From contig NZ_FO538765.1 in assembly GCF_000968135.1 (NCBI RefSeq), positions 1,131,819 to 1,195,818 on the forward strand: 64,000 bases of DNA, read 5' to 3'. How positions within the stretch are numbered: the first letter of the stretch is position 1; each line of letters opens with the position of its first letter. Of the stretch, positions 9,207-27,748 are shown in pieces. The DNA comes from Magnetospira sp. QH-2 (GTDB lineage Bacteria; Pseudomonadota; Alphaproteobacteria; Rhodospirillales; Magnetospiraceae). The position numbers were made by a program, and so were the translations under genes. The notes below the pieces were generated by a model. That model ran no database searches and was not told the origin of the DNA. It saw only the letters and a list, made by a program, of their open reading frames with translations.

Positions 9207-10282
9207 GCAATCGGACCCCACCGCTGCGTCGGTACGGTAAGGCCAGCGCCGAATACCTGGGGCAGAGCGCTGCCTTGTCGGATCCCGAACAGGATCGGGT
9301 CATGCGGCACAGCAAGCAGCGCTTGCTGGACATCTATCGGCAACAGCCCTTGCGCACCTCCTGCAAGGTCTGCGGCGGCCCGTTGCCCAATGGTGCCCGG
9401 GAGAATATCCCCTACTACCTTTTTTGCCCCGCCTGCGGCCATGCCAACGGTCGGTTCGAGGATACGCAAGCCTATCACGATGCCTATTACGGCACCGGGC
9501 AGGGGGAGGACGACGTGGCCCAGGCCTATGGCGCGGAAACCGCCGAGGCCTTCGGACAACGGGTGGCGGATATCTATCTACCCAAGGCCATGTTCCTGCG
9601 AGACGTCATCGTCGCCGATGGCCATGATCCGGCGGGAATGTCCTGTGTGGATTTTGGCGCCGGATCGGGATACTTCGTCGAGGCCCTGCACCGGGCAGGG
9701 TTCGCCGCCAAGGGATACGAGGTGTCGGCCAAACAGGTCGACCTGGGCAACCGCATGATGGATCGCGCCGCCCTGGAGCAAACGGATTTTGCCCATACCC
9801 TCGACATCGTTCGGACCCTGGAGGCGGATATTCTGTCGATGATCTTCGTGCTGGAACACGTGCGGGATCATCATCGGCTGCTGGAAGCGGTGCGGGACAA
9901 TCGGCGGATAAAATACTTCTTCTTTTCCGTCCCCTTGCACGGGGTGACTGCCTTCTGGGAAGCCGTCTTCCCCAATGTCTACGCCCGCTGTACGTCGGGC
10001 CACAACCACCTCTACACGCCGCAATCCCTGACATGGATGGCCGAGAAGTACGGGTTTCGCGAGGCGGGATCCTGGTGGTTCGGGGCCGATGTGACCGACC
10101 TCATGCGGTCCGTCGCCCTCGGTCTGCACCAGCGCTATGGAGAGTCGGATCTGACCCGGAGATGGACAGAGGCCATGCTGCCGATGATCGACTCCCTGCA
10201 ACGGGTCATGGATGAGCGCAAGCTTTCCTCCGAGGTGCATATGCTTCTCGCAACGGATGAGAAGATGGGAGATAAAGCGTGA
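9203..10282 (+). CDS. Methyltransferase with N-terminal zinc-ribbon-like module
   Basis: A 359-residue protein with two parts. Near residues 60-90 two CxxC pairs (CKVCGGPLP and FCPACGHAN) form a zinc-ribbon-like module. A class I methyltransferase domain follows, with motif I as CVDFGAGSGYFVEALHRAGF and a later IFVLEHVRDHHRLLE. This layout is common to sugar C- or O-methyltransferases of deoxysugar pathways. The start at 9203 overlaps the preceding stop (ATGA), and the stop overlaps the GTG of neuB. The domain after the methyltransferase core (HNHLYTPQSL) fits the same group. Confidence 0.78.
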   Translation: MSNRTPPLRRYGKASAEYLGQSAALSDPEQDRVMRHSKQRLLDIYRQQPLRTSCKVCGGPLPNGARENIPYYLFCPACGHANGRFEDTQAYHDAYYGTGQGEDDVAQAYGAETAEAFGQRVADIYLPKAMFLRDVIVADGHDPAGMSCVDFGAGSGYFVEALHRAGFAAKGYEVSAKQVDLGNRMMDRAALEQTDFAHTLDIVRTLEADILSMIFVLEHVRDHHRLLEAVRDNRRIKYFFFSVPLHGVTAFWEAVFPNVYARCTSGHNHLYTPQSLTWMAEKYGFREAGSWWFGADVTDLMRSVALGLHQRYGESDLTRRWTEAMLPMIDSLQRVMDERKLSSEVHMLLATDEKMGDKA

Positions 10283-11298
10283 AGCTGTTCGGCAAGAACC
10301 TGGATCACCAAGGCGTGCTCATCGCCGAAATCGGCGTCAACCACGAAGGTAGCCCGAAAAAAGCCCGGGATCTCCTGCGTTTGGCGGCGGAGGCAGGGGC
10401 CGACGCGGTCAAGTTCCAGAGCTATACGCCCGCTCGTTTTATTTCCACGCGCGACCCGGAGCGGTTTCAACAGGTCTCGGCTCGGGCCCTGGATGAACGA
10501 ACCCATTACCTGTTGGCGGAAGAGGCGGCAAAGAGGGGCGTTGCCTTCCTGTCCACACCGGTTACCGAGGACTGGATTCCATTGGTGGCACGACTGAGCC
10601 CGGTCATTAAGATCGCCAGCGGTGACTTGACCTTTGAGCCGATAATCCGGGCCGCCGCCGCGACGGGCAAGCCGGTCATCTTGTCCACGGGGCTGGGAAC
10701 GGAGACCGAGATCGAACAGGCCATCGGCTGGGTGAGAGAGGAGATTGGAGACCGCCGACTCAAAGACTCATTGGCTTTGATGCACTGCGTATCGGCCTAT
10801 CCGACGCCCATCGAGGAAGCGAACTTGCGTAGCATCCCATTTTTGACCGATCGGTTTGCCTTGACGGTCGGCTATTCCAACCATGTGATCGGTCCCGAGG
10901 CCTGCTGGGCTGCCATCGCCCTGGGGGCGCCCATCATCGAGGTGCACTTTACCGATGAAAAAGAAGGGCGGACCTTTCGAGATCATCAATTATCGTTTAA
11001 CCCTAATGACTTGGCTGGCCTGGTCGAGGCGATGCCGCGCCTTCGGGCGGCTTTGGGGCGTTACGACAAACAGCCTCAACCCAGTGAATTGCCCGGGCTT
11101 GGGGCCATGCGAAAGGGCGTGGTGGCCGCGGCGGACCTGAAAGCGGGGACGGTACTGGGCGAGGACCATATCATGTTTGCCCGACCGGCCACGGGCATCG
11201 AGTCCGGTCGGGTCGCCGAAGTCCTGGGTGCCGTCCTGACTCGGGACCTTGTTCAGGGCGAGAGTCTGGCCGACGCCGATCTTAACAAGGCTGATTGA
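10279..11298 (+). CDS. neuB: N-acetylneuraminate synthase-family protein (nonulosonate synthase)
   Basis: A 339-residue NeuB-type enzyme that condenses phosphoenolpyruvate with a 6-carbon amino sugar to a 9-carbon nonulosonic acid (sialic, legionaminic or pseudaminic type). The TIM-barrel part starts with IAEIGVNHEGS and contains AVKFQSYTP, FLSTPV, VIKIASGDLT and ILSTGLG. The last 60 residues form the SAF (antifreeze-like) domain seen in GLGAMRKGVVAAADLKAGTVL. The length and both domains are complete. GTG 10279 overlaps the previous stop (GTGA). A cytidylyltransferase at 27050-27748 could activate the product. Which nonulosonate is made cannot be read from this gene alone. Confidence 0.86.
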   Translation: MKLFGKNLDHQGVLIAEIGVNHEGSPKKARDLLRLAAEAGADAVKFQSYTPARFISTRDPERFQQVSARALDERTHYLLAEEAAKRGVAFLSTPVTEDWIPLVARLSPVIKIASGDLTFEPIIRAAAATGKPVILSTGLGTETEIEQAIGWVREEIGDRRLKDSLALMHCVSAYPTPIEEANLRSIPFLTDRFALTVGYSNHVIGPEACWAAIALGAPIIEVHFTDEKEGRTFRDHQLSFNPNDLAGLVEAMPRLRAALGRYDKQPQPSELPGLGAMRKGVVAAADLKAGTVLGEDHIMFARPATGIESGRVAEVLGAVLTRDLVQGESLADADLNKAD

Positions 11299-11304
11299 CA
11301 GGCC

Positions 11305-13134
11305 ATGTGCGGACTTGCCGGAATCATTTCGGACGAACCGGTTTCTCCAGGCGTTCTGTCCATGACCTTGGCGGCGCTGCAACACCGAGGCCCTGATGGC
11401 AACGGAGCAATCCAATCGGCGTTCAGTCAGCGGCATTTGGCCTTGCTGCATACCCGCCTTGCCATCATCGATCCGGATGATCGGGCGGCCCAGCCGTTCC
11501 GGCGTGCGGGCCTGAACCTGGTCTACAATGGTGAAATCTATAACTACATCGAGTTGCGGCGGGAATTGGAGGCCCTGGGTCATCGCTTCACCACCCGCTC
11601 GGATACCGAGGTAATCCTCGAGGCCTATCGGGCTTGGGGAGCAGACTGCGTCAAACGCTTCGACGGCATGTGGGCCTTGGCCTTGCATGACGAAGAACGA
11701 GGCATACTCTGGCTCAGTCGTGACCGGTTCGGCGAGAAACCGCTGTATTGGATGCGGCAAGGGCGGACCTTGGTGTTTGGTTCGGAGGTTCGGGCCCTGT
11801 TCACGCTGTCGGGACATCGGCCGGAACCGGATCGGGATCGCCTGCGGGCCTATTTGGTCAACGGATACAAATCCCTGTTTAAGCGGTCCGACAGCTGGTT
11901 CGAAGGCGTTTATGCCTTACCACCGGGGCATTCGGCGGTTGTGGATGCTTCTGCTCGGGTCGAACCCACGCGCTATTGGACGCTGACCCATGCGCCTCGG
12001 ACCCTCTCCTTGGGCGATCTGGTCGAGGGGACCCGGGAAAAACTGATCGACGGGGTGACGCGACGGCTTCGCGCCGATGTACCCCTGGCCTTCTGCCTCA
12101 GTGGTGGAATCGATTCAGGAACCATTGCCGCCCTCGCCGCCAAATACGGAAATACTCCCATCCACGCCTTTTCCATCGTTGACCGGGACCCGCGCTACGA
12201 CGAGCGCGATACGATGATGGAAACGGTGAAATCCATCGGGTGCCGTCATACGGTCATCGCGCCGGGGACCAGTGGATTTATTGAACGTCTGGCCGCGCAG
12301 ATTGAAAGCCGGGACGCCCCGGTGTCCACCATCTCCTATTATGTCCATGGCTTCTTGTCCGAGGCCATCGCCGGGGCCGGGTACAAGGTCGCCCTCTCGG
12401 GAACCGGGGCCGATGAACTTTTCACCGGCTATTATGATCACTACAACTTTTGGCTCGCGGGCATGAAGGATCGGGACGACTTCCCGGCATTGCTGGCCGA
12501 CTGGCGGTCAGGCTATGGGCGCATGGTCCGCAATCCAATTCTCAAGGACCCGCATGTGATCATTGGAGATCCCGGCTGTCGGCGGCATATCTATCTGGAC
12601 AATCATGTTTACAACCGCTTCATGCGAGACCCGATTGCCGAGACCTTTACCGAAACCGCTTTTTGCACCGATGGGCTGCGCAACCGGATGATGAATGAAT
12701 TGTTCGAGGAGGTGGTGCCGGTGATCTTGGAAGAAGACGATCGGAATTCCATGGGGGTTTCCATTGAGAACCGCTCGCCTTTCCTGGATCATCGCCTAGC
12801 CGAGTTTGCCTATTCGATCCCCGGAGAATACCTGGTGCAGGATGGTTTTTTGAAATGGGTCTTGCGCGCCGCAGGGGAAGGAGTGCTGCCCGATGCCGTG
12901 CGCCTGGATCGTCGAAAACGCGGCTTCAATGCGGCGATCGATACGATGCTTGATCGGTCTGATCCAACCGTCCGAGAGCGATTGCTATCCGATGGGCCCA
13001 TATTTGACCTTGTGAACCGGGCGCTTTTTACAAACTTTTTGGACCAGGACATGAGCGATGCCGACCGCTCCAAATTCCTATTCCGCTTTCTTTCAACGAG
13101 ATTGTTTCTGGATCATCTCGAGGGAGCCGCCTGA
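11305..13134 (+). CDS. asnB: Glutamine-hydrolysing asparagine synthase family protein
   Basis: A 609-residue class II glutamine amidotransferase fused to an ATP-pyrophosphatase domain. Met1 is followed by the nucleophile Cys2 (MCGLAGII), and glutaminase signatures QHRGPDG and YNGEIYN follow. The synthetase PP-loop is LSGGIDS at about residues 265-271, with SGTGADELFTGY later. In polysaccharide loci such AsnB/WbpS-type proteins make carboxamides of sugar acids rather than free asparagine. It sits between neuB and the HisF-like gene. No HisH glutaminase is present here, so its glutaminase domain is the only obvious local ammonia source for the HisF/WbpG pair; that link is inference. Confidence 0.85.
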   Translation: MCGLAGIISDEPVSPGVLSMTLAALQHRGPDGNGAIQSAFSQRHLALLHTRLAIIDPDDRAAQPFRRAGLNLVYNGEIYNYIELRRELEALGHRFTTRSDTEVILEAYRAWGADCVKRFDGMWALALHDEERGILWLSRDRFGEKPLYWMRQGRTLVFGSEVRALFTLSGHRPEPDRDRLRAYLVNGYKSLFKRSDSWFEGVYALPPGHSAVVDASARVEPTRYWTLTHAPRTLSLGDLVEGTREKLIDGVTRRLRADVPLAFCLSGGIDSGTIAALAAKYGNTPIHAFSIVDRDPRYDERDTMMETVKSIGCRHTVIAPGTSGFIERLAAQIESRDAPVSTISYYVHGFLSEAIAGAGYKVALSGTGADELFTGYYDHYNFWLAGMKDRDDFPALLADWRSGYGRMVRNPILKDPHVIIGDPGCRRHIYLDNHVYNRFMRDPIAETFTETAFCTDGLRNRMMNELFEEVVPVILEEDDRNSMGVSIENRSPFLDHRLAEFAYSIPGEYLVQDGFLKWVLRAAGEGVLPDAVRLDRRKRGFNAAIDTMLDRSDPTVRERLLSDGPIFDLVNRALFTNFLDQDMSDADRSKFLFRFLSTRLFLDHLEGAA

Positions 13135-13137
13135 ACC

Positions 13138-13896
13138 ATGTTGTGCAAGCGGATCATAACGGTCCTCACCTTTAATAACGGCGTTCTGTTCCGCACCAAG
13201 CTGTTCGAGCCCGATTACCGCTATACTCTCAATTTCGTCGATGCTTGGTCAGTGGACGAAATCGTCGTTTTGGATGTCACCCGGTCGGGGCAGGGGGACA
13301 AGGATAGTTTTTTCAAGGTGGTGCGGGATTTTGCCGACCGCTGTTTCGTGCCCCTGACCGTGGGTGGCGGAATCCGAAGCCTCGAAGACGTGCGCCGGTT
13401 AATGGGGCTCGGCGCGGACAAGGTGGTGATCAACAGCGGTGCCTTCGAGGATCCACGCCTGATCGGAGCCATCGCGGGGCGCTATGGAAGCCAATGCGTG
13501 GTCTTGAGCATCGATGCGAAGCAATCCGATGATGGTGGACATGAGGTGCGTTCCCATGCCGCCACTCGGGCAACGGGCCGCGATCCCGTCGGTTGGGCCC
13601 GCGAGGGACAAAGCCTGGGGGCGGGAGAGATTCTGCTCACGTCGGTGGAGCGGGATGGCTGGCTGCAAGGCTATGATTTGGATCTCTGCCGCTCGGTGGC
13701 CGACGCGGTCTCCGTGCCGGTATTAATCCTTGGCGGTTGCGGTAACTGGAAACATATGGAACAAGGATTTCTGCAAGGACATGCCTCGGCGGTCTGCACT
13801 CAGAACATCTATCACTTCACCGAAAAGAGCATCCAAGCCGCCAAGAGATACCTGAATTCAAAAGGGATTCCCGTGCGCATGGAGGAGAGGGCATGA
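13138..13896 (+). CDS. HisF-like cyclase subunit of sugar amidotransfer
   Basis: A 252-residue TIM-barrel protein of the HisF family. The N-terminus KRIITVLTFNNG replaces the CLDV of true HisF, so the first catalytic aspartate (Asp11) is missing, as in HisF homologues of lipopolysaccharide loci. The second one is kept in LSIDAK, and the phosphate-binding VGGGIRS and LILGGCGN are retained. It should therefore channel ammonia to the partner amidotransferase rather than serve histidine synthesis. Its stop overlaps the start of the WbpG-like gene (ATGA at 13893), fitting a complex. The usual HisH partner is absent from the window. Confidence 0.82.
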   Translation: MLCKRIITVLTFNNGVLFRTKLFEPDYRYTLNFVDAWSVDEIVVLDVTRSGQGDKDSFFKVVRDFADRCFVPLTVGGGIRSLEDVRRLMGLGADKVVINSGAFEDPRLIGAIAGRYGSQCVVLSIDAKQSDDGGHEVRSHAATRATGRDPVGWAREGQSLGAGEILLTSVERDGWLQGYDLDLCRSVADAVSVPVLILGGCGNWKHMEQGFLQGHASAVCTQNIYHFTEKSIQAAKRYLNSKGIPVRMEERA

Positions 13897-15014
13897 CGGC
13901 ATCCATCCAATTCTGTTCCCGCTGTCTGATGCCCAATACGCGGCCTCGGGTGGTGTTCGACGATCAGGGGGTCTGCAACGCCTGTCTCAATGCCGATACC
14001 AAGGCGGCCATCGCTTGGGATGCCCGACGGCAGGAGTTCCACGATTATGTTGAGCGCCTGCGTCCCAAGGAGGGCCCTTACGACTGCGTGGTGCCGTGGA
14101 GCGGCGGCAAGGATTCAACCTATATCGCCCATCGGCTGAAGGTCGAATTCGGCCTGAACCCGCTGTTGGTGACCTTTTCGCCGTTGCTACCCAATGATGT
14201 GGGCATGAACAACCGGGAAGAGCTGCTGAAGTTGGGATTTGATCATTTGATGGTGCGGCCCAATCAGGCCGTGTCCCGCCATTTGGCGCGGCGATTCTTC
14301 ATAGAGCGGGGGAATCCGAAAATCCATTGGGATGCCGGGATCAATGCCCTGCCGTTGCAGGTGGCGGTGCGCTACGGCATTCCCTTGGTGTTTTATGCGG
14401 AGCATGGCGAAAGCGAATACGGCGGGCGGGTGCTGTCCGAGGAGTCCCTGAAAATCCGCGACTTTACCGAGGTGCTTGAGCATCAGGTGGGCGACGACCC
14501 AATGAATTGGATGGATGAGGTGGTTCAAGAACAAGACTTGGCACCCTATGTATATCCCGAGCCCGAAGCGCTTGAGGCGGTGGGGGTGAAGGCCTTGTAC
14601 TTCTCCTATTTCTTCCGCTGGAGCATGCTGGAGAACTATCGCTACGTGAAAAAGAACCTGCCGACGTTTCAGACAGAACCCCAGGGCCGTACAGACGGCA
14701 CCTTCACCGATTTCGACAGTCTCGACGACAAGATCGACAATATTTACTACTACCTGCAATTCGTGAAATTCGGCTTCGGCCGGGCCACCCGGGATGCCTG
14801 TCGAATGATCCAGAACGGCCAGATGAACCGGGAGGAGGGACTGGACCTGGTGCGCAAATACGACTCAGAAGTCCCCAAGACGCATTTTCAGGATAGTCTG
14901 GACTACCTGGGATTGGCCGAAAACGAATTTACCGAAATCGTCGATGCGCACCGCAACGGGGAAATCTGGGCGTTCCGGGGCAATCAATGGCATTTGCGGG
15001 CCGAGCCGACATGA
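13893..15014 (+). CDS. N-acetyl sugar amidotransferase (WbpG/PseA type)
   Basis: A 373-residue ATP-dependent amidotransferase expected to turn the N-acetyl group of a nucleotide or nonulosonate sugar into an acetamidino group. Two CxxC pairs (FCSRCLMP at 7-14, VCNACLN at 27-33) open the protein. The PP-loop is WSGGKDST at about 69-76, and the family signature EHGESEYGG follows in the middle. Homologues work with HisF-like and HisH-like subunits that supply ammonia; the HisF gene overlaps it directly upstream. It is followed by radical SAM genes. The length agrees with the family. Confidence 0.87.
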   Translation: MTASIQFCSRCLMPNTRPRVVFDDQGVCNACLNADTKAAIAWDARRQEFHDYVERLRPKEGPYDCVVPWSGGKDSTYIAHRLKVEFGLNPLLVTFSPLLPNDVGMNNREELLKLGFDHLMVRPNQAVSRHLARRFFIERGNPKIHWDAGINALPLQVAVRYGIPLVFYAEHGESEYGGRVLSEESLKIRDFTEVLEHQVGDDPMNWMDEVVQEQDLAPYVYPEPEALEAVGVKALYFSYFFRWSMLENYRYVKKNLPTFQTEPQGRTDGTFTDFDSLDDKIDNIYYYLQFVKFGFGRATRDACRMIQNGQMNREEGLDLVRKYDSEVPKTHFQDSLDYLGLAENEFTEIVDAHRNGEIWAFRGNQWHLRAEPT

Positions 15015-15021
15015 TCCGCCC

Positions 15022-16080
15022 ATGAAGATCAATTTCGGTGTCAAACGAGTCACCTCCCTGAGCAAGGAACTGCGTTACGTCGCCCGGCAGCGGCACCCCT
15101 TGCGCTACCTGATCAATCGCTTCCGTTGGCACTATTATCCGCAGTTGTTCCATGTCTCGCGGTTTCCCGATCATCTGGATATCGAGACCTCGTCGGCCTG
15201 CCAGATCCACTGCCCCATGTGTTTCCTGACCGTTCGCAAGGATGTGCCGAAAAACATCATGTCCATGGCGCTGTTCGAACGAATCATGGCCGAAGTGGCG
15301 CGCCGTGACCCTTATTCCATCCGCCTGTCCTGGCGCGGGGAATGCCTGGTCAATCCACGATTCAAGGATATGCTTATTCATGCCCGATCAGTCTATAATG
15401 GCAGTATCTCCTTTCTGACCAATGGTTTGCGGCTGACCGAAGATCTCATCGATACCATCATCGAACAAGATGTTTGCTACATCGTCATTTCGGCGGATGG
15501 CTTGGGGGCGATCTATGAAGAAGTCCGCAAACCCGGCAAGTTCGACGATTTGATTGCCAAGTTGGCCTACCTCAAACACCGCAAGGAAGAATTGGGCAGA
15601 TATCGACCGCAAGTACGCATCAATGCCGTGGGGACTTGGTTCAGGGGCGATGAATTGGCCCGCTTCATCGAAACCTTCGACCCCTATGCGGATCGCATCT
15701 TGGTCGGAGAGCTTCTCAGCAACTTCGATAGCGTGCCAGTGGAACACGACCCCAGCCTTATTTGTGCGCAGCCCTGGCAACGCATGATGATTGCCTGGGA
15801 TGGCAAGATTTACCCCTGCTGCGATGACTACACGGGCCTCTATCCGGTGGGGGATGTCAACGAGCAGAGCCTCAAGGAGATCTGGCACGGGGATCGGCTC
15901 AATCAACTGCGGGATTGGAATCGCAAGCGCGAACGGCTGAAATGCGACCTCTGCCGAACCCGGGATTGCGGGATCGACAGAAACCCGCATACTCATTCCG
16001 ACGCCATGAAGACAGCCTTGCGCAATCAGGTTCTAGACCAATATGGAAAAGACACCCCATTGCTCAAGTATCTCGAATAG
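15022..16080 (+). CDS. Radical SAM/SPASM protein 1
   Basis: A 352-residue radical SAM enzyme. The 4Fe-4S cluster motif CX3CX2C is CQIHCPMC (about residues 67-74). A C-terminal SPASM-like cysteine set is seen in ICAQPWQR, YPCCDDY and CDLCRTRDC, which could bind auxiliary clusters. It starts at ATG 15022, eight bases after the WbpG stop; an ATG at 15011 stops at once. SPASM proteins usually modify peptides or carry out dehydrogenations; in this setting a glycan, carrier or aminoacyl substrate is just as possible. The function is unknown. Confidence 0.8.
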   Translation: MKINFGVKRVTSLSKELRYVARQRHPLRYLINRFRWHYYPQLFHVSRFPDHLDIETSSACQIHCPMCFLTVRKDVPKNIMSMALFERIMAEVARRDPYSIRLSWRGECLVNPRFKDMLIHARSVYNGSISFLTNGLRLTEDLIDTIIEQDVCYIVISADGLGAIYEEVRKPGKFDDLIAKLAYLKHRKEELGRYRPQVRINAVGTWFRGDELARFIETFDPYADRILVGELLSNFDSVPVEHDPSLICAQPWQRMMIAWDGKIYPCCDDYTGLYPVGDVNEQSLKEIWHGDRLNQLRDWNRKRERLKCDLCRTRDCGIDRNPHTHSDAMKTALRNQVLDQYGKDTPLLKYLE

Positions 16081-16105
16081 AGGCATATTGAACGGAAATT
16101 AAAAA

Positions 16106-17158
16106 ATGACCAAGCAGGACATTGTCTTCAAGCAGCAGCAAGATAACAAGCAGGTTAAGCTGCTGAGCTACAAGGACATGGACGCCATTCTGAGCGAAAA
16201 GGTCGGCGAACGGTATGACCGCTATCGTGCAGATTGGCGGGCCGGCATGCAGTTCGAACGGGTTCCGGAATTTCCTCTCTCCATCGAGATCGAGAACCTG
16301 AATCACTGCAATTTCAGTTGCCATATGTGTCTGTTCTCCCTGCCCAAAAGCCATCCAGACGCGCCGCACAAGAAAGAGAACAAGCGATTTCTGGACTTCG
16401 AGGTCTACAAAAAGGCCATCGACGAGGCCTCGGCCCATCAAATGCCCGCTTTGACCCACGGGGTGCTCTGCGAAACCCTGCTGCATCCGAGAATGATGGA
16501 CATGATCGCCTATGCCCAGGACCGGGGGGTGGTGGACCAACGGTTGGGGTCCAACGGGGCCTTGTTGACCAAGGAGGTCAGCGAACGGCTGGTGGATCTG
16601 GGGCTCGCCCGGTTGGAGATCTCCCTGGATGGATTCAACGAGGAAACGTTTAACATGGTGCGGTTCGGCAAGGGAGCCGACTACCACCAAATCGTTGCCA
16701 ATATCCGGGATTTTCTGGAAATTCGGGAGCGCAAGAACAGCCGATTCCCGTTGCTGCGCCTGAGCTTCTTGAAGCTGAACGTCAATGCCGACCAGGTGGA
16801 GGCGTTTCTGGATTATTGGCGTGACTATGCCGACTATTTTTCCATCCAAGAGCCGGTCAACTACAAGCTGGACCTGAAAAAAACCTCGCTTGTGTTCGAT
16901 ACACCGCACGAAAAACCCAATTTCCGCTGTGACAAGCAGCATAACCGCATATTTATGCGCCACGACGGTACCTTGCTGCCTTGCTTTCATGTGCATGGAT
17001 GGCAGGAATTCGCCCTAGGCAACGTCAAGGACAGCACCATCAAGGAAGCCTGGGATTCCCCGAAGATGCAGTATCTCAGAGCCCTGCACAAAAAGGGCGA
17101 GTATCATAAAAACAAGATCTGCCACAACTGCGTCATGTGCACCGGCCAGGAAGCCTGA
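16106..17158 (+). CDS. Radical SAM/SPASM protein 2
   Basis: A 350-residue radical SAM protein paralogous in layout to the preceding one. The cluster motif is CNFSCHMC (about residues 68-75). The second half contains the SPASM-type cysteines in FRCDKQHN, LLPCFHVHG and CHNCVMC. It begins with a charged 60-residue leader (MTKQDIVFKQQQDNKQVK) absent from protein 1. A gap of 25 bases separates the two genes, and the ribosome binding site is weak. Two adjacent SPASM proteins in one operon suggest sequential or partner reactions on one substrate. The function is not known. Confidence 0.8.
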   Translation: MTKQDIVFKQQQDNKQVKLLSYKDMDAILSEKVGERYDRYRADWRAGMQFERVPEFPLSIEIENLNHCNFSCHMCLFSLPKSHPDAPHKKENKRFLDFEVYKKAIDEASAHQMPALTHGVLCETLLHPRMMDMIAYAQDRGVVDQRLGSNGALLTKEVSERLVDLGLARLEISLDGFNEETFNMVRFGKGADYHQIVANIRDFLEIRERKNSRFPLLRLSFLKLNVNADQVEAFLDYWRDYADYFSIQEPVNYKLDLKKTSLVFDTPHEKPNFRCDKQHNRIFMRHDGTLLPCFHVHGWQEFALGNVKDSTIKEAWDSPKMQYLRALHKKGEYHKNKICHNCVMCTGQEA

Positions 17159-17202: not shown

Positions 17203-18507
17203 GTGTACATCAAGGGTCTATTGCGCGAGATCTATCTAGAGCCCAGGGTGGTCGTTTCTGCGGCCATTGAAAAGGCGCTGGAGACGCTGCGCGAGCGCAG
17301 CGGTCTACCGCTCGAAATCGAGCACACCCCGGGTGGCAGCGAATGCCTGACTTGGCTGATCCCGCCGCGCTGGCTGGTTGAAGAGGCCTATATCAGCGAC
17401 GGACAGCATAAAATCGTCGATCACGAACACCACCCCCTTTACGTGCCTCCCTACAGCGAGCCCTTTGAAGGATGGGTGTCGCGAGAAGAACTGGACCGCC
17501 ATCTGTTTTCCGAACCGGAACGCCCCGCTTTCATTCCTTTCATGGTGGATTGGGAACTGGAATTCCGCGAACGGGATTGGGGATTTAGCCTGCCAGACAC
17601 CCTCCGCGTGACCCTGGATCAGGACCGCTATTACGTCTGCATTCGAACACGGGTCGAGGAATACGGGGACCTGACAACAGGGGTCTGTCGATTGCCCGGG
17701 CGGTCGAAGCGGGAAATCCTTTTGGTGACCAATACCTGCCATCCGGGGCAGATCAACGATGCCATTTCCGGCGTCGGGGTCGCCTTGGAAGTCATGCGGC
17801 GACTGCGGGACCGGCCTGATCTGCGCTGGAGTTACCGACTGCTTTTGGTGCCCGAATACCTGGGGTCGGCGGCCCATTTGGATCGCCATATGGATCAGGT
17901 CGATCATTTCGAATGCGCCATGATGCTGAAAATCCTCGGTAACGATGCACCGTTCTCGCTTCAACACTCGTCACGAGGGACCCATCGTATCGACCGCATC
18001 TTTGCGCATGTCTTGCGCCACGGCTATGGGGCCTACCGGGAAGAGGGATTCAGGGAGATCACCGGCAATGACGAACTTTTCTTCGAAAGCCAGGGAATTG
18101 ACGTCCCTTGCGTTTCATTGAGTCGTTGCCGGAAAATCACGATGCAGGATCGCTTTTTCGGCCTATTCGAGGAGTACCATTCGTCGGGGGACGAACCGGA
18201 CAGGCTGCACGAGGAGAAACTGCAAGAAGCGGTGGATCTGGTCATGGCTGTCATTGAGGTATTTGAAGGCGACGTCGTGCCCATTGCCCGTTTCAAGGGT
18301 CCGATTAACCTGTACCGGCATGATCTCTGGCTGGATTTTGACAAGACGCAAGGAGCCGGGGAGCGGTTGAACCGGGTCATGGCCCTGATTGATGGCGGTA
18401 AAAGCGCTTTTGACCTGGCCGAAGAGACAGGCATGTACTTCAATGACTGCCTGCTGTTTTTAAAAGAGCTTTCTCGAATTGGATATGTGGAGTTCAAGGA
18501 ACCGTGA
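17203..18507 (+). CDS. DUF4910/M28-like aminopeptidase-fold protein
   Basis: A 434-residue protein of the DUF4910 (DUF2172-associated) type, with an M28 zinc-peptidase-like core. Zinc ligand candidates are His/Asp in NTCHPGQINDAISG, Glu in LVPEYLGS, and a distal His in EEYHSSGDEPDR. The C-terminal 70 residues look like a small winged-helix module. No signal peptide is present, so it is cytoplasmic. The GTG at 17203 follows a GGGGATGG-like site; an earlier start would overlap the radical SAM gene. Homologues recur in surface-glycan clusters, and hydrolysis of an amide or aminoacyl bond is a reasonable guess. It overlaps the next gene (GTGA). Confidence 0.75.
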   Translation: MYIKGLLREIYLEPRVVVSAAIEKALETLRERSGLPLEIEHTPGGSECLTWLIPPRWLVEEAYISDGQHKIVDHEHHPLYVPPYSEPFEGWVSREELDRHLFSEPERPAFIPFMVDWELEFRERDWGFSLPDTLRVTLDQDRYYVCIRTRVEEYGDLTTGVCRLPGRSKREILLVTNTCHPGQINDAISGVGVALEVMRRLRDRPDLRWSYRLLLVPEYLGSAAHLDRHMDQVDHFECAMMLKILGNDAPFSLQHSSRGTHRIDRIFAHVLRHGYGAYREEGFREITGNDELFFESQGIDVPCVSLSRCRKITMQDRFFGLFEEYHSSGDEPDRLHEEKLQEAVDLVMAVIEVFEGDVVPIARFKGPINLYRHDLWLDFDKTQGAGERLNRVMALIDGGKSAFDLAEETGMYFNDCLLFLKELSRIGYVEFKEP

Positions 18508-19421
18508 CCCGGGAAAACCAATGGGTCGAGCGATATTTTGATCAAGTCGCCGACTATTACGATGATTTGCAGGCGGACACGGCGGACCTGCCATTGCTGC
18601 CAGCGGACCGGTGCCTTGGCGGGTTGATGACCGACGGCCCCCGGAAAGTTATGGATCTGGGGTGCGGGACCGGACGCTTGACCCTGAAACTGGCCGACGC
18701 CGGGCACCGGATTTCGGCAATCGATGTGAGTGGCCGCATGATCGAGGCCTGTCGCGCTCGGCTGGCCAATGCGGGACGAGACGAGGAACTCGCCTGGAAA
18801 GCCGATGTATCAGACCCTAACGTGCTGGCCGCCGCCGCTTATGACGCGGTCTTTGCCATCGACCTGTTCGACTACCTGGGCCTGGGCATGGTCGAGTTTT
18901 TAGATATTTGTTTTCGAACCCTCAGGCCGGGGGGAAAGCTCATTGCCTCCTTTGGGAACGGGCTTCTGCCGCTGTTTTCTCTGGATCGTTCCACATCGGA
19001 TTTTTTCAGAGATCACATTTTTGAACGGGTGCCATTCGTGGATGAGGACACCCGTGTGGCAGTGACGCAGACGGCCAAGGGCTTGTTGCGTTGTGCCGAT
19101 GATCCGCCAAAGGACCATTCCGGCGCTCAAGGATATGAGGCCGATAAGCAAGCGGGGGTGGCGCGTCTGGTTCACAGTGATCTCCCAAGGCAATCAATCA
19201 ATCCACTGACACTTGCTGACGTTCTCGCCCGGGCCGGGTTCAAGGCATTGGATCAGCAGTTCTATGGCTATCTGGCCGTGCCGCCGGGATTGAGAAATGC
19301 CTTTCCGAGAGCCAACGACGAGGCGGCGCGGCAGATGGAATCCCATTGGGAAAAGGATTGGCGCGGTACCTTCATGGCCCAGCGTCTATTCCTGGTCATG
19401 GAAAAGATCGGCCATGGATAG
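18504..19421 (+). CDS. Class I SAM-dependent methyltransferase
   Basis: A 305-residue methyltransferase. Motif I is VMDLGCGTGRLTLKLADAG (about residues 49-67), then ISAIDVSGRMIEACR, then DAVFAIDLFDYLG and LRPGGKLIASFGNG. The C-terminal extension (TLADVLARAGFK) resembles cap regions of small-molecule methyltransferases. GTG 18504 overlaps the preceding stop and its own stop overlaps the acyltransferase start by eight bases, so it belongs to the acyl-carrier cassette downstream. Substrate unknown; a carrier-bound or sugar-bound group is possible. Confidence 0.78.
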   Translation: MTRENQWVERYFDQVADYYDDLQADTADLPLLPADRCLGGLMTDGPRKVMDLGCGTGRLTLKLADAGHRISAIDVSGRMIEACRARLANAGRDEELAWKADVSDPNVLAAAAYDAVFAIDLFDYLGLGMVEFLDICFRTLRPGGKLIASFGNGLLPLFSLDRSTSDFFRDHIFERVPFVDEDTRVAVTQTAKGLLRCADDPPKDHSGAQGYEADKQAGVARLVHSDLPRQSINPLTLADVLARAGFKALDQQFYGYLAVPPGLRNAFPRANDEAARQMESHWEKDWRGTFMAQRLFLVMEKIGHG

Positions 19422-20208
19422 CCTCTCGCCCGCGGAGATTGCCGATGCGCTCCAGTCGGTCGGGGCATCTCGCGATGACGTGATCTTCCTGCATACGGAT
19501 ATCTCTCGCATCGGGCCCATCACAGGTGCCAAGGATCGCGAGTCCACGATGAACGGGTACGTGGATGGTCTTTTCAAGGCCGTCGGTCCCGGTGGAACGG
19601 TGGCCGCCTTGACGGCAAGCGAGAGCTATGCCCGTCATGACACCCCCTATGTGCATGAGCAAACACCTTCCGAACAAGGCATTCTGACCGAGCATATTCG
19701 CGGCATGCCCGGCGCGGTGCGGTCTTTTCATCCGTTGTTCTCCATTGCCGCCGTGGGGCCTCGGGCGGCGTCTCTATGCGGTGATGTGAGCTATACGGGA
19801 TACGGGTATGATTCTCCGTTCGACCGGCTGCACCGGATGAATGCGCTCATTGTCTGCCTCGGGGTTGATCTTCTGGCCATGAGTTTTGTCCATCATATGG
19901 AGCAGCGCTTCGGGGTTCCATATGGCTACACCAAAGAATGGTCCGCCCCGGTTTTTAAGGACGGCCAACGCTCCAACCGACGTTTTTTTGCCTTTGTTCG
20001 CTATCTGGATGCAGGGATCGACTATGACTTCACCCGTTTCCAGACCGACTTGTTGGCCGCCGGATTGGCAAAGCAGGCAAGCCTCGGCTATGGTCGGGTG
20101 GTGGCGGTCCGGGCCGCCGATGCCTTTGAAGCGGGCATGGGCAAGCTTCGCGAGGATCCGTTCTATTTCCTCGCCTCACCCCCGAAAGAGGAGCCTTGGC
20201 GCCGGTGA
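19414..20208 (+). CDS. AAC(3)-family N-acyltransferase
   Basis: A 264-residue acyltransferase of the aminoglycoside 3-N-acetyltransferase family. Signatures are LHTDISRIG, PGGTVAALTAS, and the conserved His segment VRSFHPLFSIAAVG. The length agrees with the family. In glycan loci, members acylate amino sugars and need not give drug resistance. It overlaps the methyltransferase upstream and, by GTGA, the acyl carrier protein downstream, so an acyl-ACP donor is likely instead of acetyl-CoA. This is inferred from gene order. Confidence 0.8.
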   Translation: MDSLSPAEIADALQSVGASRDDVIFLHTDISRIGPITGAKDRESTMNGYVDGLFKAVGPGGTVAALTASESYARHDTPYVHEQTPSEQGILTEHIRGMPGAVRSFHPLFSIAAVGPRAASLCGDVSYTGYGYDSPFDRLHRMNALIVCLGVDLLAMSFVHHMEQRFGVPYGYTKEWSAPVFKDGQRSNRRFFAFVRYLDAGIDYDFTRFQTDLLAAGLAKQASLGYGRVVAVRAADAFEAGMGKLREDPFYFLASPPKEEPWRR

Positions 20209-20438
20209 GTCAGGAAACCATGGAGACGGAGGTTCGGCATTTGCTGGCGGCGATTATTGATACCGATGCCGCGGCTCTGACCCCCGAAGCCGCGATCAAC
20301 AGCTTTCCGGGGTGGGATTCGTTTGCCCATATGAACATCATGATGATGCTCAACGAAACCTTTCAAGTTCCCATCGATGAAACAACGATCATCCGCTGCA
20401 CCAGCCTTTCCGGCATTTTGGAAATGCTGAAGACCTAG
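20205..20438 (+). CDS. Acyl carrier protein
   Basis: A 77-residue stand-alone carrier protein. The phosphopantetheine serine is Ser39 in PGWDSFAHMN, the usual DS(L) context with Phe after Ser. Helices flanking it are acidic as expected (IDTDAAALTPEAA before, VPIDETTII after). GTG 20205 overlaps the acyltransferase stop; ATG 20220 is a possible alternative start. It lies between an acyltransferase and an adenylation enzyme, so it should carry the activated acyl or aminoacyl group between the two. Confidence 0.85.
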   Translation: MSQETMETEVRHLLAAIIDTDAAALTPEAAINSFPGWDSFAHMNIMMMLNETFQVPIDETTIIRCTSLSGILEMLKT

Positions 20439-20447
20439 GACCGGTCC

Positions 20448-22025
20448 ATGACGCCGCATCCCTCTCCAGGACCAAGCCTCGACAAGACCCTGCTGGGACA
20501 GATCCACGCGCGGGTTTTGAGCCAACCCGAGGCGATCGCGCTATGGGCCGATGGCGAAGGCTGGACCTATCACGAGCTGTGGCACCGCGCTCAGGTCATG
20601 GCGTCGGCCATCAACGAAAGGGGCGGGTCTTCCCCGGTCTGCGCCCTGTATGCCTTCCGCAATGGGCCAACCTACGCCGCCATCTTGGGGATATTGCTGG
20701 CTGGTCGGGCCTATCTGCCCATCAATCCCCACTGGCCTTCGGCGCGCTGTCTGGCCGTGCTGGTCCAAGCCGGAACGGATTGTGTGGTTTGTGCCTCCGC
20801 CGACAGATCGGAAGTTCAGGATCTGCTATCCCATGGGGCGCTTGAAGACCGACCTCAGATTCTGCCCATCCCGGAACAAGACACGGCCGTTCCCAAGCAG
20901 GCGGAGACCGCCAGTCTGTTGGCGGCGCGGGATCAGCCGTTGGCCTATCTGTTGTTCACTTCCGGCTCCACGGGGGCACCAAAAGGGGTCCCCATCGCCA
21001 AATCCTGTGTTGAAAGCTATGTCTCGACGGTTCGGGAGCGATATGGCTTTTGTTCCACGGATCGGCTTTCCCAGGTTTTTGATCTTACGTTCGACTTGTC
21101 GGTTCATGACCTGTTTGTCGCCTGGACGTCCGGGGCGGCGTTGTATTGCGTGCCGGATCGGGAACTGGTGGCGCCCGCAGCGTTTATAGAGACCCATCGG
21201 TTGACCTGCTGGTTTTCCACGCCTTCCATGGCAACCTTGTTGGACCGCTTTGGATTGCTCGACCCCGGGCGTTTTGACAGCCTGCGCCTCAGCCTGTTTT
21301 GCGGTGAGCCATTGACCCAGAGGATGGCGCGGGCCTGGGCCCGGGCCGCCCCCAATGGGCCCGTGGAGAACTTGTATGGCCCGACGGAAGCCACCATTGC
21401 GACGACGGCCCATGTCTTCGATCCGGATAGGGAGGCGCAAGGCGATCTGGTGCCGATCGGACAATCCTTTCCCGATCAAGTCATCCAGATCCTGACCGAT
21501 GATGGGACCGAGGCGGCTCAGGGGGAGCCGGGGGAACTGCTGATCAGCGGGCCGCAACTCTGCGCGGGTTATTGGCGGGACCCGAATCAAACCCAAGAGC
21601 GGTTTATCCGCCTGCCGGGGAGCGATGCTGTTTGGTATCGAACCGGGGATCTGGTTCACCGGGACTCCGAGGGGGACCTGCACTTCCGGGGCCGATTGGA
21701 TCATCAGATCAAGGTCCGGGGACATCGGGTGGAATTGGGAGAGATCGAGGCGGTATTGCGATCAATCGCCCAAACGGATCAGGTTGCCGCATTCGGCTGG
21801 CCCCGGTCAGAAGGAACCGCCCAGGCGGTTGCCGCCTTCGTGGCGGACAGCCCCATGGACAACAAAGCCATCCAAGCCGCCTGTCGGGACCGCCTGCCGT
21901 CTTACATGGTGCCCAGCGCAATCCGCCGGCTGGATCGTCTGCCCTTGAATACCAGCGGCAAGATCGATCGAGCCGCTTTGATGGAACAATTGGATTCAAA
22001 TCATCGGGAAGACGGGGATGCGTAG
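20448..22025 (+). CDS. Stand-alone amino-acid adenylation enzyme
   Basis: A 525-residue AMP-forming ligase of the NRPS adenylation/DltA type. Core motifs are TSGSTGAPKG (A3, 171-180), FDLSVHDLF (A4), NLYGPTEAT (A5), YRTGD (A7), GRLDHQIKVRGHRVELGEIE (A8) and a catalytic lysine in NTSGKIDR (A10). The aspartate in FDLS matches the residue that binds the alpha-amino group in NRPS A domains, so an amino acid substrate is favoured. There is no condensation or carrier domain in the same chain; the separate ACP nine bases upstream is the likely acceptor. The stop overlaps the formyltransferase start by eight bases. Confidence 0.86.
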   Translation: MTPHPSPGPSLDKTLLGQIHARVLSQPEAIALWADGEGWTYHELWHRAQVMASAINERGGSSPVCALYAFRNGPTYAAILGILLAGRAYLPINPHWPSARCLAVLVQAGTDCVVCASADRSEVQDLLSHGALEDRPQILPIPEQDTAVPKQAETASLLAARDQPLAYLLFTSGSTGAPKGVPIAKSCVESYVSTVRERYGFCSTDRLSQVFDLTFDLSVHDLFVAWTSGAALYCVPDRELVAPAAFIETHRLTCWFSTPSMATLLDRFGLLDPGRFDSLRLSLFCGEPLTQRMARAWARAAPNGPVENLYGPTEATIATTAHVFDPDREAQGDLVPIGQSFPDQVIQILTDDGTEAAQGEPGELLISGPQLCAGYWRDPNQTQERFIRLPGSDAVWYRTGDLVHRDSEGDLHFRGRLDHQIKVRGHRVELGEIEAVLRSIAQTDQVAAFGWPRSEGTAQAVAAFVADSPMDNKAIQAACRDRLPSYMVPSAIRRLDRLPLNTSGKIDRAALMEQLDSNHREDGDA

Positions 22026-22947
22026 ACTGTTTTTTGTCGGCGATCCCATTCCGTTGCGACGGGTCCTGAGCAATCTCGGCGATCAATCCCTGACCTTGAT
22101 GGGCATTGCCAGCGATAACCCGGCGGCCCGGGGCTTGGCGGATCAACTGAATCTGCCGCTCTGGCCCAATCGGGATATCAATGGCGAGGCCTTTCTTGGC
22201 CACCTGTCCGCGAACCCGCCGGACCTGATTTTCAATTATAACGCCACTACTCTCTTCGGAGCGGCGCTGTTGGCGGTGCCCAAGGACGGCTGTGTGAACA
22301 TTCACCCGGGCCCTCTGCCCCGATATGCCGGGCTCAACGTTCACCAATGGGGCATTATCAATGGAGAGAAAATTTTTGGGGTGACCGCCCATATGATGGA
22401 GCGTGGAATTGATACCGGCGATGGGGTCGGCGAGGTCGAAGTCCCGATCCTTGCGGAAGATACCGGGCTGACTTTGCATTTGAAGCTTCTCAAGGCGGGG
22501 GCGGAACTGGTGGAGAGCGTTCTTTGCCAGTACGGGCGCAGCGGGCTTCCGGCGCGCACCCCTCAAGACCTTTCGGCACGCCGCTACTATGGGCGGGATA
22601 CACCCCATGGAGGGCGGGTTTCACCCACTTGGCCCGTGCACCGGGTGATCAATTTCGTGCGCGCGCTCAGCTACCGTCCGATGCTGTCGCCAACGGGGCC
22701 CGCGCTGTTCGGTTTCGGCCCGCAAGCAGAAATCGAGATCGTCAAGGTGTCTCATTGTGACGGGAAAGGCGGCGCGCCGGGAAGGGTGCTGTCCTTGGAT
22801 CCGTTCATGGTTGAATTTACCGATGGCTGTGTCCGTGTGGAGAAAATCCACATTGATGGGGTTGTTGACCCTTCGGAAAAGATCTTGAGGCGCTGGGGTA
22901 TCGATGTGGGAAGCCACCTGATCAGTCCAGGTGGTCCCCCGATTTGA
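22018..22947 (+). CDS. Formyltransferase family protein 1
   Basis: A 309-residue N10-formyl-tetrahydrofolate-dependent formyltransferase, expected to formylate an amino sugar. The catalytic Asn-x-His is VNIHPGPLPRYAG and the catalytic Asp is in ERGIDTGDGV. A C-terminal beta domain like that of ArnA/Fmt follows (LFGFGPQAEIEIVKV). ATG 22018 overlaps the adenylation gene, so it is the last gene of the 15-kb operon. Its final 26 bases overlap the 3' end of another formyltransferase on the opposite strand. Confidence 0.82.
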   Translation: MRRLFFVGDPIPLRRVLSNLGDQSLTLMGIASDNPAARGLADQLNLPLWPNRDINGEAFLGHLSANPPDLIFNYNATTLFGAALLAVPKDGCVNIHPGPLPRYAGLNVHQWGIINGEKIFGVTAHMMERGIDTGDGVGEVEVPILAEDTGLTLHLKLLKAGAELVESVLCQYGRSGLPARTPQDLSARRYYGRDTPHGGRVSPTWPVHRVINFVRALSYRPMLSPTGPALFGFGPQAEIEIVKVSHCDGKGGAPGRVLSLDPFMVEFTDGCVRVEKIHIDGVVDPSEKILRRWGIDVGSHLISPGGPPI

Positions 22948-23809
22948 GCCGACGGTCCGGGTCTCCCTCATCGAGGTAGTCGAGGATCAGCAACGCCCGG
23001 TCAGCGCAAATCAGAAAGGGTCCTTGGCCCTGTATCTGGCAGAGGCGGCCGGGGACCCCCCGCAAGACGAAATCGGCGGGCCGCGCCGCGAACAAGCGAA
23101 CTTTTCGGCCACGGCGCAGACAAAAGGCCCCCGGATAGGGCCTGGTCAAGGCGCGGATCATGCGGTCGGCCTGATCGGCGGTCATGGTGCGGGGGGTGAT
23201 CCGCCCGTCCTCATCGTTCCGCTGATGCCAGTAGGCCGCGCGGGCATCATCCTGTGGCTTGGGAATCAATGACCCATCCATCATGCCTTGAAGGGCTTCA
23301 ACGGCCATGTCACCAAAGAGCGGGTTGGCCCGATGATGAAGGTCTGCAATGGTCATGCTTGGGGTCAAGGGTATGGACCTTTCCGCCACCAATGCCCCGT
23401 CGTCGATGCCTTCAGCCAAAACCAGAACACTGAGTCCGACGGAGGGTTCGCCATTGATCATCTGCCAATTGAGAGGCGATCCGCCGCGATACTCCGGCAC
23501 GCGGCCGCCATGCAGATTCAATATGCCGATCCTCGGAATGCCAATCAGGGGAGGCTTGAAAATGGTTGGAAACCCGGCAATCAGGAACAGATCCGCCTGC
23601 CACGAGGCTGCTTGTTCAATGAAGGCCGGGTCATTGACGTCCGGGGCTTCGACGATTTGAAACCGTCCATTCGCCGCCTTCTCGTTCAAGCTCGCGGAAA
23701 TAAACCCCGTGGGGACCACCACCTGGCCGCAGTCCATGCTCTCGCTCAGCAGGCGATCCAATACCGCCAGACCACGCGCGCCATTGAGGAAAAGGGCGAT
23801 CCCGGCCAT
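22922..23809 (-). CDS. Formyltransferase family protein 2
   Basis: A 295-residue formyltransferase-like protein. The Asn-x-His pair is in GILNLHGGRVPEYRGG, and the Asp is in LAEGIDDGALV. The C-terminal part resembles the substrate-binding domain of ArnA/FdtF-like enzymes (RALTRPYPGAFCLRRG). It ends the minus-strand operon 27748-22922 and is probably specific for the amino sugar made by the aminotransferase two genes upstream. It is clearly diverged from formyltransferase 1, so this is not a tandem duplication. Confidence 0.82.
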   Translation of the reverse strand: MAGIALFLNGARGLAVLDRLLSESMDCGQVVVPTGFISASLNEKAANGRFQIVEAPDVNDPAFIEQAASWQADLFLIAGFPTIFKPPLIGIPRIGILNLHGGRVPEYRGGSPLNWQMINGEPSVGLSVLVLAEGIDDGALVAERSIPLTPSMTIADLHHRANPLFGDMAVEALQGMMDGSLIPKPQDDARAAYWHQRNDEDGRITPRTMTADQADRMIRALTRPYPGAFCLRRGRKVRLFAARPADFVLRGVPGRLCQIQGQGPFLICADRALLILDYLDEGDPDRRLKSGDHLD

Positions 23810-24860: not shown

Positions 24861-26015
24861 TTACCAACCCACCAGCGTCTCTTTGATCGCCGTGGCAATT
24901 CGTTTCATATGGTCTGGCGTGAGGTGTGGTCCGACGGGCAGGGCGATGGACGTATCGCTGATCCGTGCCGCACTCGGAAAGTCACTGTCCCGGTAGCCAT
25001 ATTGATTTTGATAGTAGTCGAGCCGGGGGACCGGATGAGGATAGTAGACACTGCTGCCAACGCCTCTTTCTTTCAGGCCCTTGATCAGGGCGCTCCGCTT
25101 CGCTTCCCAGCCTTGGGGCAACAGGGTGGACAGGCAGTAGTGACCATGGACGACCCGGTCATTCCCTGATGCAAGAGGGGTCAATTCTTCAATGTCGGCC
25201 AGGGCGTCGGCCAAGGTATTTCGGTTTTCGGCCCGCTTGGTCAGAAATCCAGGTAGTTTCTTCACCTGTTCGATGCCGATGGCCGCATTGATTTCATTCA
25301 TCCGATAGTTAAACCCCAATTCAGGCACATTGTAAACGCCCGGGGTTGCCCGCTCCCCGTGCGTTCTGTTGACGCCGAATGCCCGGATGAGACGCAGTCT
25401 TTCGGCCAGATCCTGGTTCCGGGTAATGACCATGCCGCCTTCGGCCGTGGTCATGTGTTTGACCGGGTAAAAAGAGAAAACACCCGCATCGCCCCACAGG
25501 CCGGTATGGCTTCCATCGAGCGATGCACCCACGGACAGAGCGCAATCTTCCAGCAACAAGAGCCCATGGCGCTTGGCGAGCATTGCAAGGGACGTCATGT
25601 CGGCAGGCAGGCCGAGAAAGTGCACCACGACAATTCCCTTGGTTCTTTCGGTGATTGCCGACTCAACCCGTGAAACATCCATGTTCCCCGTCACCGGATC
25701 GGCATCGACGAAGATGGGGCGTGCTCCGGTCAATGCCACGGCGTGGGCCGTGGCCACATGGGTTTGCGCCGGAACGACGACCTCGTCTCCCTTGCCCAGG
25801 CCGTGTTCGTGCCAGAACAAATGCATGCCGGCCGTGCAGCTGGACACCGCGACGGCGTGAGGCGCGTCGGTGAACTGCCGAAACGCTTCCTCGAAGGCGA
25901 GGGTTTTGGGCCCGTGAACGAGAATACTGCCGGCCAGGACCGCCGCGACGGCTTGTTGTTCCTCGTCGCCGATCATCGGTCTGCCGAAGGGGATCTGCTC
26001 CATGGATCTGGTCAC
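24861..26015 (-). CDS. DegT/DnrJ/EryC1 aminotransferase
   Basis: A 384-residue PLP-dependent sugar aminotransferase. The Schiff-base lysine is Lys186 in SFYPVKHMTTAEGG; LLLLEDCALSVG holds the PLP-ring aspartate, and GFNYRMNEINAAIG is the family signature. It should move an amino group from glutamate to a keto-sugar nucleotide. GTG 26015 overlaps the upstream dehydrogenase stop (GTGA); ATG 26003 is an alternative. In contrast to the PLP protein at 36104 it keeps the catalytic lysine, so it is a true aminotransferase. Confidence 0.87.
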   Translation of the reverse strand: MTRSMEQIPFGRPMIGDEEQQAVAAVLAGSILVHGPKTLAFEEAFRQFTDAPHAVAVSSCTAGMHLFWHEHGLGKGDEVVVPAQTHVATAHAVALTGARPIFVDADPVTGNMDVSRVESAITERTKGIVVVHFLGLPADMTSLAMLAKRHGLLLLEDCALSVGASLDGSHTGLWGDAGVFSFYPVKHMTTAEGGMVITRNQDLAERLRLIRAFGVNRTHGERATPGVYNVPELGFNYRMNEINAAIGIEQVKKLPGFLTKRAENRNTLADALADIEELTPLASGNDRVVHGHYCLSTLLPQGWEAKRSALIKGLKERGVGSSVYYPHPVPRLDYYQNQYGYRDSDFPSAARISDTSIALPVGPHLTPDHMKRIATAIKETLVGW

Positions 26016-27049: not shown

Positions 27050-27748
27050 TTATGATCGGTCCTCGTATACCTGCATGACCTCCACCAGGGAGGCGGTGAT
27101 CAGCCGGGGCCCGAGAGCCCGGGCAATTTTTTGGACCCGATGATAATCCTCCACGGTATCCACGGAGAGCTGAACCGAATCCATGGCTATCTTGCTTTCG
27201 AAACTGGCAAAGGTGACCTCTTCGGGATGAGCGTAGAAATAGGCTGTCACATGTTCGCGTTCCCTTGCCGACATGACAGGGTGGGCTTCGCGCAATCGCT
27301 CGGCCCGAAAGACTTCCACCGACATGCCTTTCGGAAAGCTGCGTTTGAGGATGTTGGTCGCCAGGTCGCATCGCGAGGTCTCGAACAAGGCCACTGCCTG
27401 GTCAATGAGGGCAGGATCAAGGAATGGGCTGTCACCGGATATCCGGACCAGGGTCTGGGCCTTCGCTTCGATGGCGGCCTGGACAAAGCGTCCCGCCACG
27501 TCATCCAAATCCCCCCTGTAACAGGCAATTCCCATGTTTTCGCACAGCGCGGCGATGGGGTCATCGTCGGAACCGGAAGAAGTGGCAACGGCCAATCCGC
27601 TGATACTTTCACAACGCTTCATTCGCTCGATCATGATTTCCAGCATGGGCTTGCCTGCAAGCGGGCGCAGGACCTTCCCCGGCAGACGCTTTGAGGAAAG
27701 CCTTGCTTGAATAAGAAGAAGCGGTTTGGGCGGGGCTCGATCGGGCAA
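27050..27748 (-). CDS. Cytidylyltransferase (SpsF/CMP-sugar activation type)
   Basis: A 232-residue CTP_transf_3 family protein. The N-terminal IQARLSSKRLPGKVLRPLAGKPML is the CTP-binding signature, and RISGDSPFLDP holds the metal-binding aspartate. It is expected to make a CMP-activated sugar acid. The only reachable start is TTG 27748, directly before the first beta strand, since a TGA lies a few codons upstream. It heads the five-gene minus operon. The NeuB product made in the neighbouring plus operon is a possible substrate, but SpsF-like members also use other sugars. Confidence 0.8.
   Translation of the reverse strand: MPDRAPPKPLLLIQARLSSKRLPGKVLRPLAGKPMLEIMIERMKRCESISGLAVATSSGSDDDPIAALCENMGIACYRGDLDDVAGRFVQAAIEAKAQTLVRISGDSPFLDPALIDQAVALFETSRCDLATNILKRSFPKGMSVEVFRAERLREAHPVMSAREREHVTAYFYAHPEEVTFASFESKIAMDSVQLSVDTVEDYHRVQKIARALGPRLITASLVEVMQVYEDRS

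Follow-up and report, generated by a model that had tools for sequence, protein, structure and literature searches.

Genes at the locus

Within a 64,000-nucleotide stretch of the Magnetospira sp. QH-2 genome (contig NZ_FO538765.1, positions 1,131,819 to 1,195,818; hereafter the window), six coupled plus-strand genes (17203-22947) encode a DUF4910 protein, a methyltransferase, an N-acyltransferase of the aminoglycoside 3-N-acetyltransferase (AAC(3)) fold, an acyl carrier protein (ACP), a stand-alone adenylation (A) domain and a formyltransferase. The cassette sits within a surface-polysaccharide cluster that contains NeuB, WbuX/WbuZ, Wzx and glycosyltransferases, with sugar genes on both sides. 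Judging from its sequence and setting, the product of the operon is probably an N-(aminoacyl) sugar destined for a surface polysaccharide, with an aminoacyl-ACP as the donor for N-acylation of an amino sugar.

Consecutive genes of the cassette overlap by 4, 8, 4 and 8 nucleotides, and the single gap, of 9 nucleotides, lies ahead of the A-domain gene. The first gene (17203-18507) encodes a DUF4910/DUF2172 peptidase-like (M28-like) protein with a C-terminal extension (PF16254, 174 bits; PF09940, 68 bits; Protein Data Bank (PDB) entry 3k9t, E = 3.4e-39). Its GTG start at 17203 was picked by alignment, 17137 also being open, and it is the only DUF4910 gene in this genome. A GTGA overlap at 18504 joins it to the gene for an S-adenosylmethionine (SAM)-dependent methyltransferase (18504-19421; Methyltransf_12, 58 bits; also Methyltransf_25 and Methyltransf_11), which in turn shares 8 nucleotides (19414-19421) with that for the AAC(3)-fold enzyme (19414-20208; PDB 5ht0, E = 1.7e-17), the proposed aminoacyl-ACP:amino sugar transferase. 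A second GTGA, at 20205, links the latter to the ACP gene (20205-20438), which also starts with GTG. The A-domain gene (20448-22025; AMP-binding, 210 bits) shares 8 nucleotides with the last gene (22018-22947; PF00551, 71 bits; ArnA formyltransferase, E = 5e-29), whose product is an ArnA/GDP-perosamine-type formyltransferase with the N-H-D triad present.

The initial annotation had delimited a unit at 18504-22025 consisting of the methyltransferase, AAC(3), ACP and A-domain genes with overlapping ends. All four lie where it had placed them, and the overlaps of 4, 8 and 4 nucleotides hold from the DUF4910/methyltransferase pair to the AAC(3)/ACP pair, the ACP/A-domain pair being separated by the gap. 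The extent was drawn too narrowly: the DUF4910 gene also overlaps into the unit, as does the formyltransferase gene, which is coupled to the A-domain gene and had been missed.

Compared with solved structures in the PDB, the methyltransferase gave weak matches only, and its substrate cannot be read from the sequence; methylation of the amino acid by this enzyme is possible. The formyltransferase was nearest to ArnA and GDP-perosamine enzymes, with the LgrA F domain matched weakly, so the sugar itself is as likely to be formylated as the amino acid is to be capped. A second formyltransferase gene (22922-23809, minus strand; Formyl_trans_N and Formyl_trans_C) converges on the cassette, overlaps its last gene by 26 nucleotides and lies in the opposite-strand sugar operon.

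The A domain and its carrier protein

The A domain scores 349 bits against TIGR01733 (amino acid adenylation), above the cut-off of 317, and alignment places its Asp216 and Lys505 at Asp235 and Lys517 of GrsA, which together form the signature of alpha-amino-acid activation. Asp216 is the alpha-amino-binding residue that had been described as kept, and activation of an alpha-amino acid is strongly indicated by these sequence features. The ten-residue code, read from alignment to the PDB sequences of GrsA (1amu) and DltA (3e7w and 3dhv), is D-L-H-F-L-C-L-I-A-K, with Phe at position 278. Six of the ten residues, Cys301 among them, are common to Bacillus cereus DltA, so the pocket points to a small amino acid. 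Naming the exact one from DLHFLCLIAK was rejected, as six residues match DltA (D-Ala) and about as many are presumably in common with the codes for Cys, Ser, Gly and stand-alone Pro. We also rejected the identification of the domain as DltA itself, given its 262 bits against the TIGR01734 equivalog cut-off of 560.

The ACP scores 26.6 bits against PF00550 (cut-off 20.8) and carries its phosphopantetheine-site serine, Ser39, in the sequence GWDS, with the DS motif present. Two phosphopantetheinyl transferases are encoded in the genome. From these features, the A domain would load the ACP with an aminoacyl group.

The AAC(3)-fold enzyme lies outside the resistance clade

The AAC(3)-fold protein scores 137 bits against PF02522 (Antibiotic_NAT; cut-off 25), and its His160 and Glu163 occupy invariant columns of the alignment. 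Assignment as an aminoglycoside 3-N-acetyltransferase proper was rejected, the score against the NCBIfam AAC_3 equivalog being 107 bits versus a cut-off of 270. A tree of 61 AAC(3) sequences grouped ten rows, among them the aminoglycoside enzyme 5ht0, in a clade with good support. No member of this clade had a carrier or loader neighbour, counted as a same-strand A domain, FkbH-like gene or ACP no more than 4.5 kb away, and the window protein fell outside it. Such a neighbour was present at 35 of the 51 loci outside the 5ht0 clade versus 0 of 9 inside (Fisher p = 1.4e-4), a value that serves as a guide only because the rows are non-independent, with close relatives in the sample, and two Solidesulfovibrio loci among the 51 entered via their A domain. 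Counting A-domain neighbours alone gave 9/51 versus 0/9, which is not significant (p = 0.33); the starred branches of the tree require the A-domain label to have been gained or lost three times or more. The arrangement of AAC(3) with a carrier or loader is more than chance. Aminoglycoside AAC(3) resistance enzymes have the fold and the His/Glu motif in common with the window enzyme, but differ from it in being CoA-dependent, stand-alone and in a separate clade.

Related cassettes in other genomes

AAC(3) relatives were sought in whole genomes, one contig collection and plasmids. A single-sequence scan of the contig collection with the window AAC(3) gave no match, and a tighter AAC(3) alignment used as the query of that collection gave six loci. 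AAC(3)-ACP-A-domain triads, for which the initial annotation had suggested a genome search, occur on two Solidesulfovibrio plasmids and at a locus from another proteobacterial class (L132). The Solidesulfovibrio plasmids each encode an A domain, an ACP, a 241-residue protein and AAC(3), all in one direction, and their A domains have 41-43% identity to that of the window and an identical ten-residue code. At L132, DUF4910, methyltransferase, ACP and AAC(3) genes are consecutive on one strand; an amino-acid-type A domain (code DLFVVCLCAK) abuts from the opposite strand, and DegT and NeuB genes adjoin. Further A domains of this type lie near AAC(3) on the same strand (L082, L084 and L110) or on the opposite one (L033 and L114). 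The clustering of DUF4910, AAC(3)-fold and ACP genes with a NeuB-type gene in the window has counterparts at L095, L129 and L132, and on a Tritonibacter plasmid DUF4910 overlaps AAC(3) within a pseB-pseC-pseI-pseF cluster.

Other loaders take the place of the A domain elsewhere. An FkbH-like loader stands beside AAC(3) in many loci, MaoC/SDR genes do so at L025, a FabH-like protein with an ACP at L095, and an acyl-CoA-ligase-type neighbour without the amino-acid motif at L129 and L131. In five loci (L028, L037, L076, L078 and L080), AAC(3) is fused to an FkbH-like HAD-GNAT protein, with DUF4910 adjoining; each such fusion is a loader and transferase in one protein, possibly for glyceryl-ACP.

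Three further loci were seen in the course of these searches. The Magnetospira genome itself holds a second AAC(3)-fold gene (3.80 Mb; L024, 5457-10851), accompanied by an SDR gene, an ACP-like open reading frame and the gene for an acyl-ligase in which the amino-acid Asp is absent; this set is probably another cassette, one that carries a different acyl group. A Leisingera plasmid exopolysaccharide cluster (L119, 8914-11769) encodes an A domain-carrier protein fusion with a C-terminal part and the code DLHFLCWISK. An Azospirillum plasmid (L118, 7016-14252) encodes a stand-alone A domain (DLFFLCLIAK), an ACP, a methyltransferase, a diiron oxygenase and nonribosomal peptide synthetase/polyketide synthase genes; the pocket is almost the same as that of the window A domain, in a natural-product setting.

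Comparison with known systems

The Dlt system (DltA-DltC) likewise pairs a stand-alone A domain with a carrier protein. Its recipient is teichoic acid, reached via DltB and DltD, and no DltB/DltD-type genes were seen in the operon. The butirosin proteins BtrJ, BtrI and BtrH, which place a modified acyl side chain on an antibiotic, pass a carrier-borne amino acid to a sugar amine, a logic in common with the window, but BtrH lacks the AAC(3) fold, and we take it to belong to the BtrH_N family. The butirosin comparison drawn in the initial annotation therefore holds for the logic of moving an ACP-borne amino acid to an amine and fails for the enzyme family. The broader proposal of that annotation, transfer of an amino acid to an amino sugar of the glycan, has partial support, from sequence and context, in the amino-acid-type A domain, the loadable ACP, the N-acyltransferase and the surface-glycan cluster.

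Among published systems, the nearest are the DUF4910 acyl cassettes found in nonulosonic-acid clusters, represented by CA_C2195-2199 and cj1295-cj1297 and partly familiar from flagellar sugars, for instance in Campylobacter; the window has a variant with an amino-acid loader. In Campylobacter jejuni cj1295-cj1297, a peptidase-like protein, Cj1295, which we take to be a DUF4910 protein, adjoins an AAC(3)-family gene as in the window, and ACP and FkbH-like genes presumably lie further down. Cj1295 is required for the di-O-methylglyceroyl group at C5 of pseudaminic acid, a carboxylic acid attached to an amine of this nonulosonic acid (PMC3068675), and its neighbour Cj1296/7 is annotated as an aminoglycoside N3'-acetyltransferase (PMC3025981). 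In C. jejuni the acyl group is glyceric acid, whereas the window encodes an A domain for amino acids as well as a formyltransferase. Clostridium acetobutylicum CA_C2187-2199 brings together DUF4910 (CA_C2195), an N-acyltransferase, acpA and a NeuB-like synthase, like the window, but its loader appears to be HAD-type rather than an A domain. The report of the CA_C2195 structure (3k9t) lists DUF4910 with NeuB, an aminosugar N-acetyltransferase, an ACP and an N-acetyltransferase-HAD fusion, finds the classical metallopeptidase site not kept and suggests a role in transacylation to an amino sugar (PMC4000134).

Amino-acid-bearing nonulosonic acids have been described, among them Leg5Ac7AcAla (PMC7371886), Leg5GluNMe7Ac (PMC13317340) and Pse5Am7Ac8GlnNAc (PMC3068675). 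The AAC(3)-ACP-A triad itself was not found in a literature search.

The surrounding polysaccharide cluster

Upstream of the cassette on the plus strand lies the gene for a NeuB-type nonulosonic acid synthase (10279-11298; PF03102, 204 bits; TIGR03569, 264 bits, below the cut-off of 400), a candidate source of the acceptor sugar; by analogy, the acceptor is plausibly the NeuB product. It is followed by a gene for an AsnB-like protein (start 11305) and by those for WbuZ (HisF-like, 13138; TIGR03572, 230 bits, below the cut-off of 300) and WbuX (N-acetyl sugar amidotransferase, 13893; TIGR03573, 338 bits, above the cut-off of 203), a pair (13138-15014, plus strand) of the acetamidino-type modification. 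In this region (11305-15014), WbuZ/WbuX have no adjacent WbuY/HisH-type glutaminase and the AsnB-like gene is directly upstream. Three HisH-like glutaminases are encoded elsewhere in the genome; that the AsnB-like protein supplies the ammonia for WbuX/WbuZ is only a thought.

On the minus strand, a PseC-like DegT aminotransferase (24861-26015; TIGR03588, 311 bits, below the cut-off of 423) is the alternative candidate for supplying a free sugar amine, and a CMP-sugar synthase-like cytidylyltransferase lies at 27050-27748 (PF02348, 97 bits). Beyond these lie a second DegT aminotransferase (36092), a GDP-fucose-synthase-like gene (38166), a UDP-GlcNAc 2-epimerase family member (42178), two glycosyltransferases (44913 and 46097) and a Wzx-type protein (49617). 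Assignment to the pseudaminic or legionaminic acid pathway by equivalog was rejected, as all scores for PseI, PseC, LegB and LegC are below curated cut-offs. Also encoded in the cluster are radical SAM proteins, three of the SPASM and one of the B12 type (15019-17158, 29376-30335 and 34013-36067).

A proposed route to an aminoacylated sugar

In the route that we propose, the A domain would activate a small amino acid and load it onto the ACP. Gene coupling and the recurrence of the arrangement suggest that the AAC(3)-fold enzyme would then move the aminoacyl group from the ACP, rather than acetyl from CoA, onto a sugar amine. By analogy, the acceptor would most likely be a diamino nonulosonic acid or a precursor from the NeuB pathway, and DUF4910 may first remove an acetyl group or otherwise free the amine, as proposed for Cj1295. 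As a guess, the methyl- and formyltransferases might act afterwards on either the amino acid or the sugar; capping of the newly introduced free amine is one example. The initial annotation had DUF4910 as a protein that could trim or edit the product; published work on this family (PMC4000134, PMC3068675 and PMC3025981) is in the same spirit but favours preparing or acylating the sugar amine over trimming.

Several points weigh against an aminoacylated sugar as the product. The equivalog scores of the window NeuB, PseC-like and LegB-like proteins are all below cut-off and do not name the sugar; the family score of the ACP is modest; the literature found does not link the known aminoacyl sugars to an AAC(3)-ACP-A cassette; and the AAC(3) enzyme could use a CoA ester, with the A-ACP pair serving another product. 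The cassette might also carry a hydroxy acid or a short fatty acid, rather than an amino acid, from the ACP to the sugar, as the FkbH-, ketoacyl- and acyl-CoA-ligase-type AAC(3) cassettes probably do. Most sampled AAC(3) cassettes do have FkbH-like or MaoC/SDR neighbours, and the ligase beside the second AAC(3) of this genome, with its SDR and ACP-like companions, lacks the Asp. The operon, however, has no FkbH, MaoC or SDR gene, its A domain exceeds the amino-acid-adenylation cut-off with both GrsA residues kept, and the code is conserved across triads, making this alternative unlikely.

The near-identical code in the natural-product-like Azospirillum cluster raises the prospect of an aminoacyl-ACP that feeds a small peptide-like natural product, the sugar cluster merely adjoining. 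We regard this as quite improbable, since a scan of window proteins found no condensation or thioesterase domain, AAC(3) and DUF4910 repeatedly accompany nonulosonic-acid genes, and polysaccharide genes flank both sides. A further alternative is that the AAC(3)-fold enzyme acetylates a sugar or an aminoglycoside in the ordinary CoA-dependent way, its overlap with the ACP gene being incidental. This fits the solved members of the fold found, which are mostly CoA-dependent aminoglycoside enzymes; it is very unlikely for a protein far below the AAC_3 cut-off and outside the 5ht0 clade, whose sampled members have no carrier neighbours.

More tentatively, those AAC(3)-fold enzymes that fall outside the resistance clade may form a broad class of carrier-dependent sugar N-acyltransferases whose loader (A domain, FkbH-like, ketoacyl or acyl ligase) has been exchanged in evolution. 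The window would be the amino-acid form, in which the formyltransferase caps the aminoacyl group to give an N-formyl-aminoacyl nonulosonic acid; we hold this extended scheme to be doubtful.

Implications

Bacterial surface sugars bearing amino acids are known chemically, and no dedicated enzyme set has been assigned to them in the literature found. The aminoacylation of surface sugars would become directly testable with an operon that has a loader, carrier and transferase of its own. If the proposal is true, a drug-resistance fold extends into glycan synthesis with a large branch that depends on carrier proteins, many genes annotated as aminoglycoside acetyltransferases are misnamed, and the function of DUF4910 is tied to that branch.

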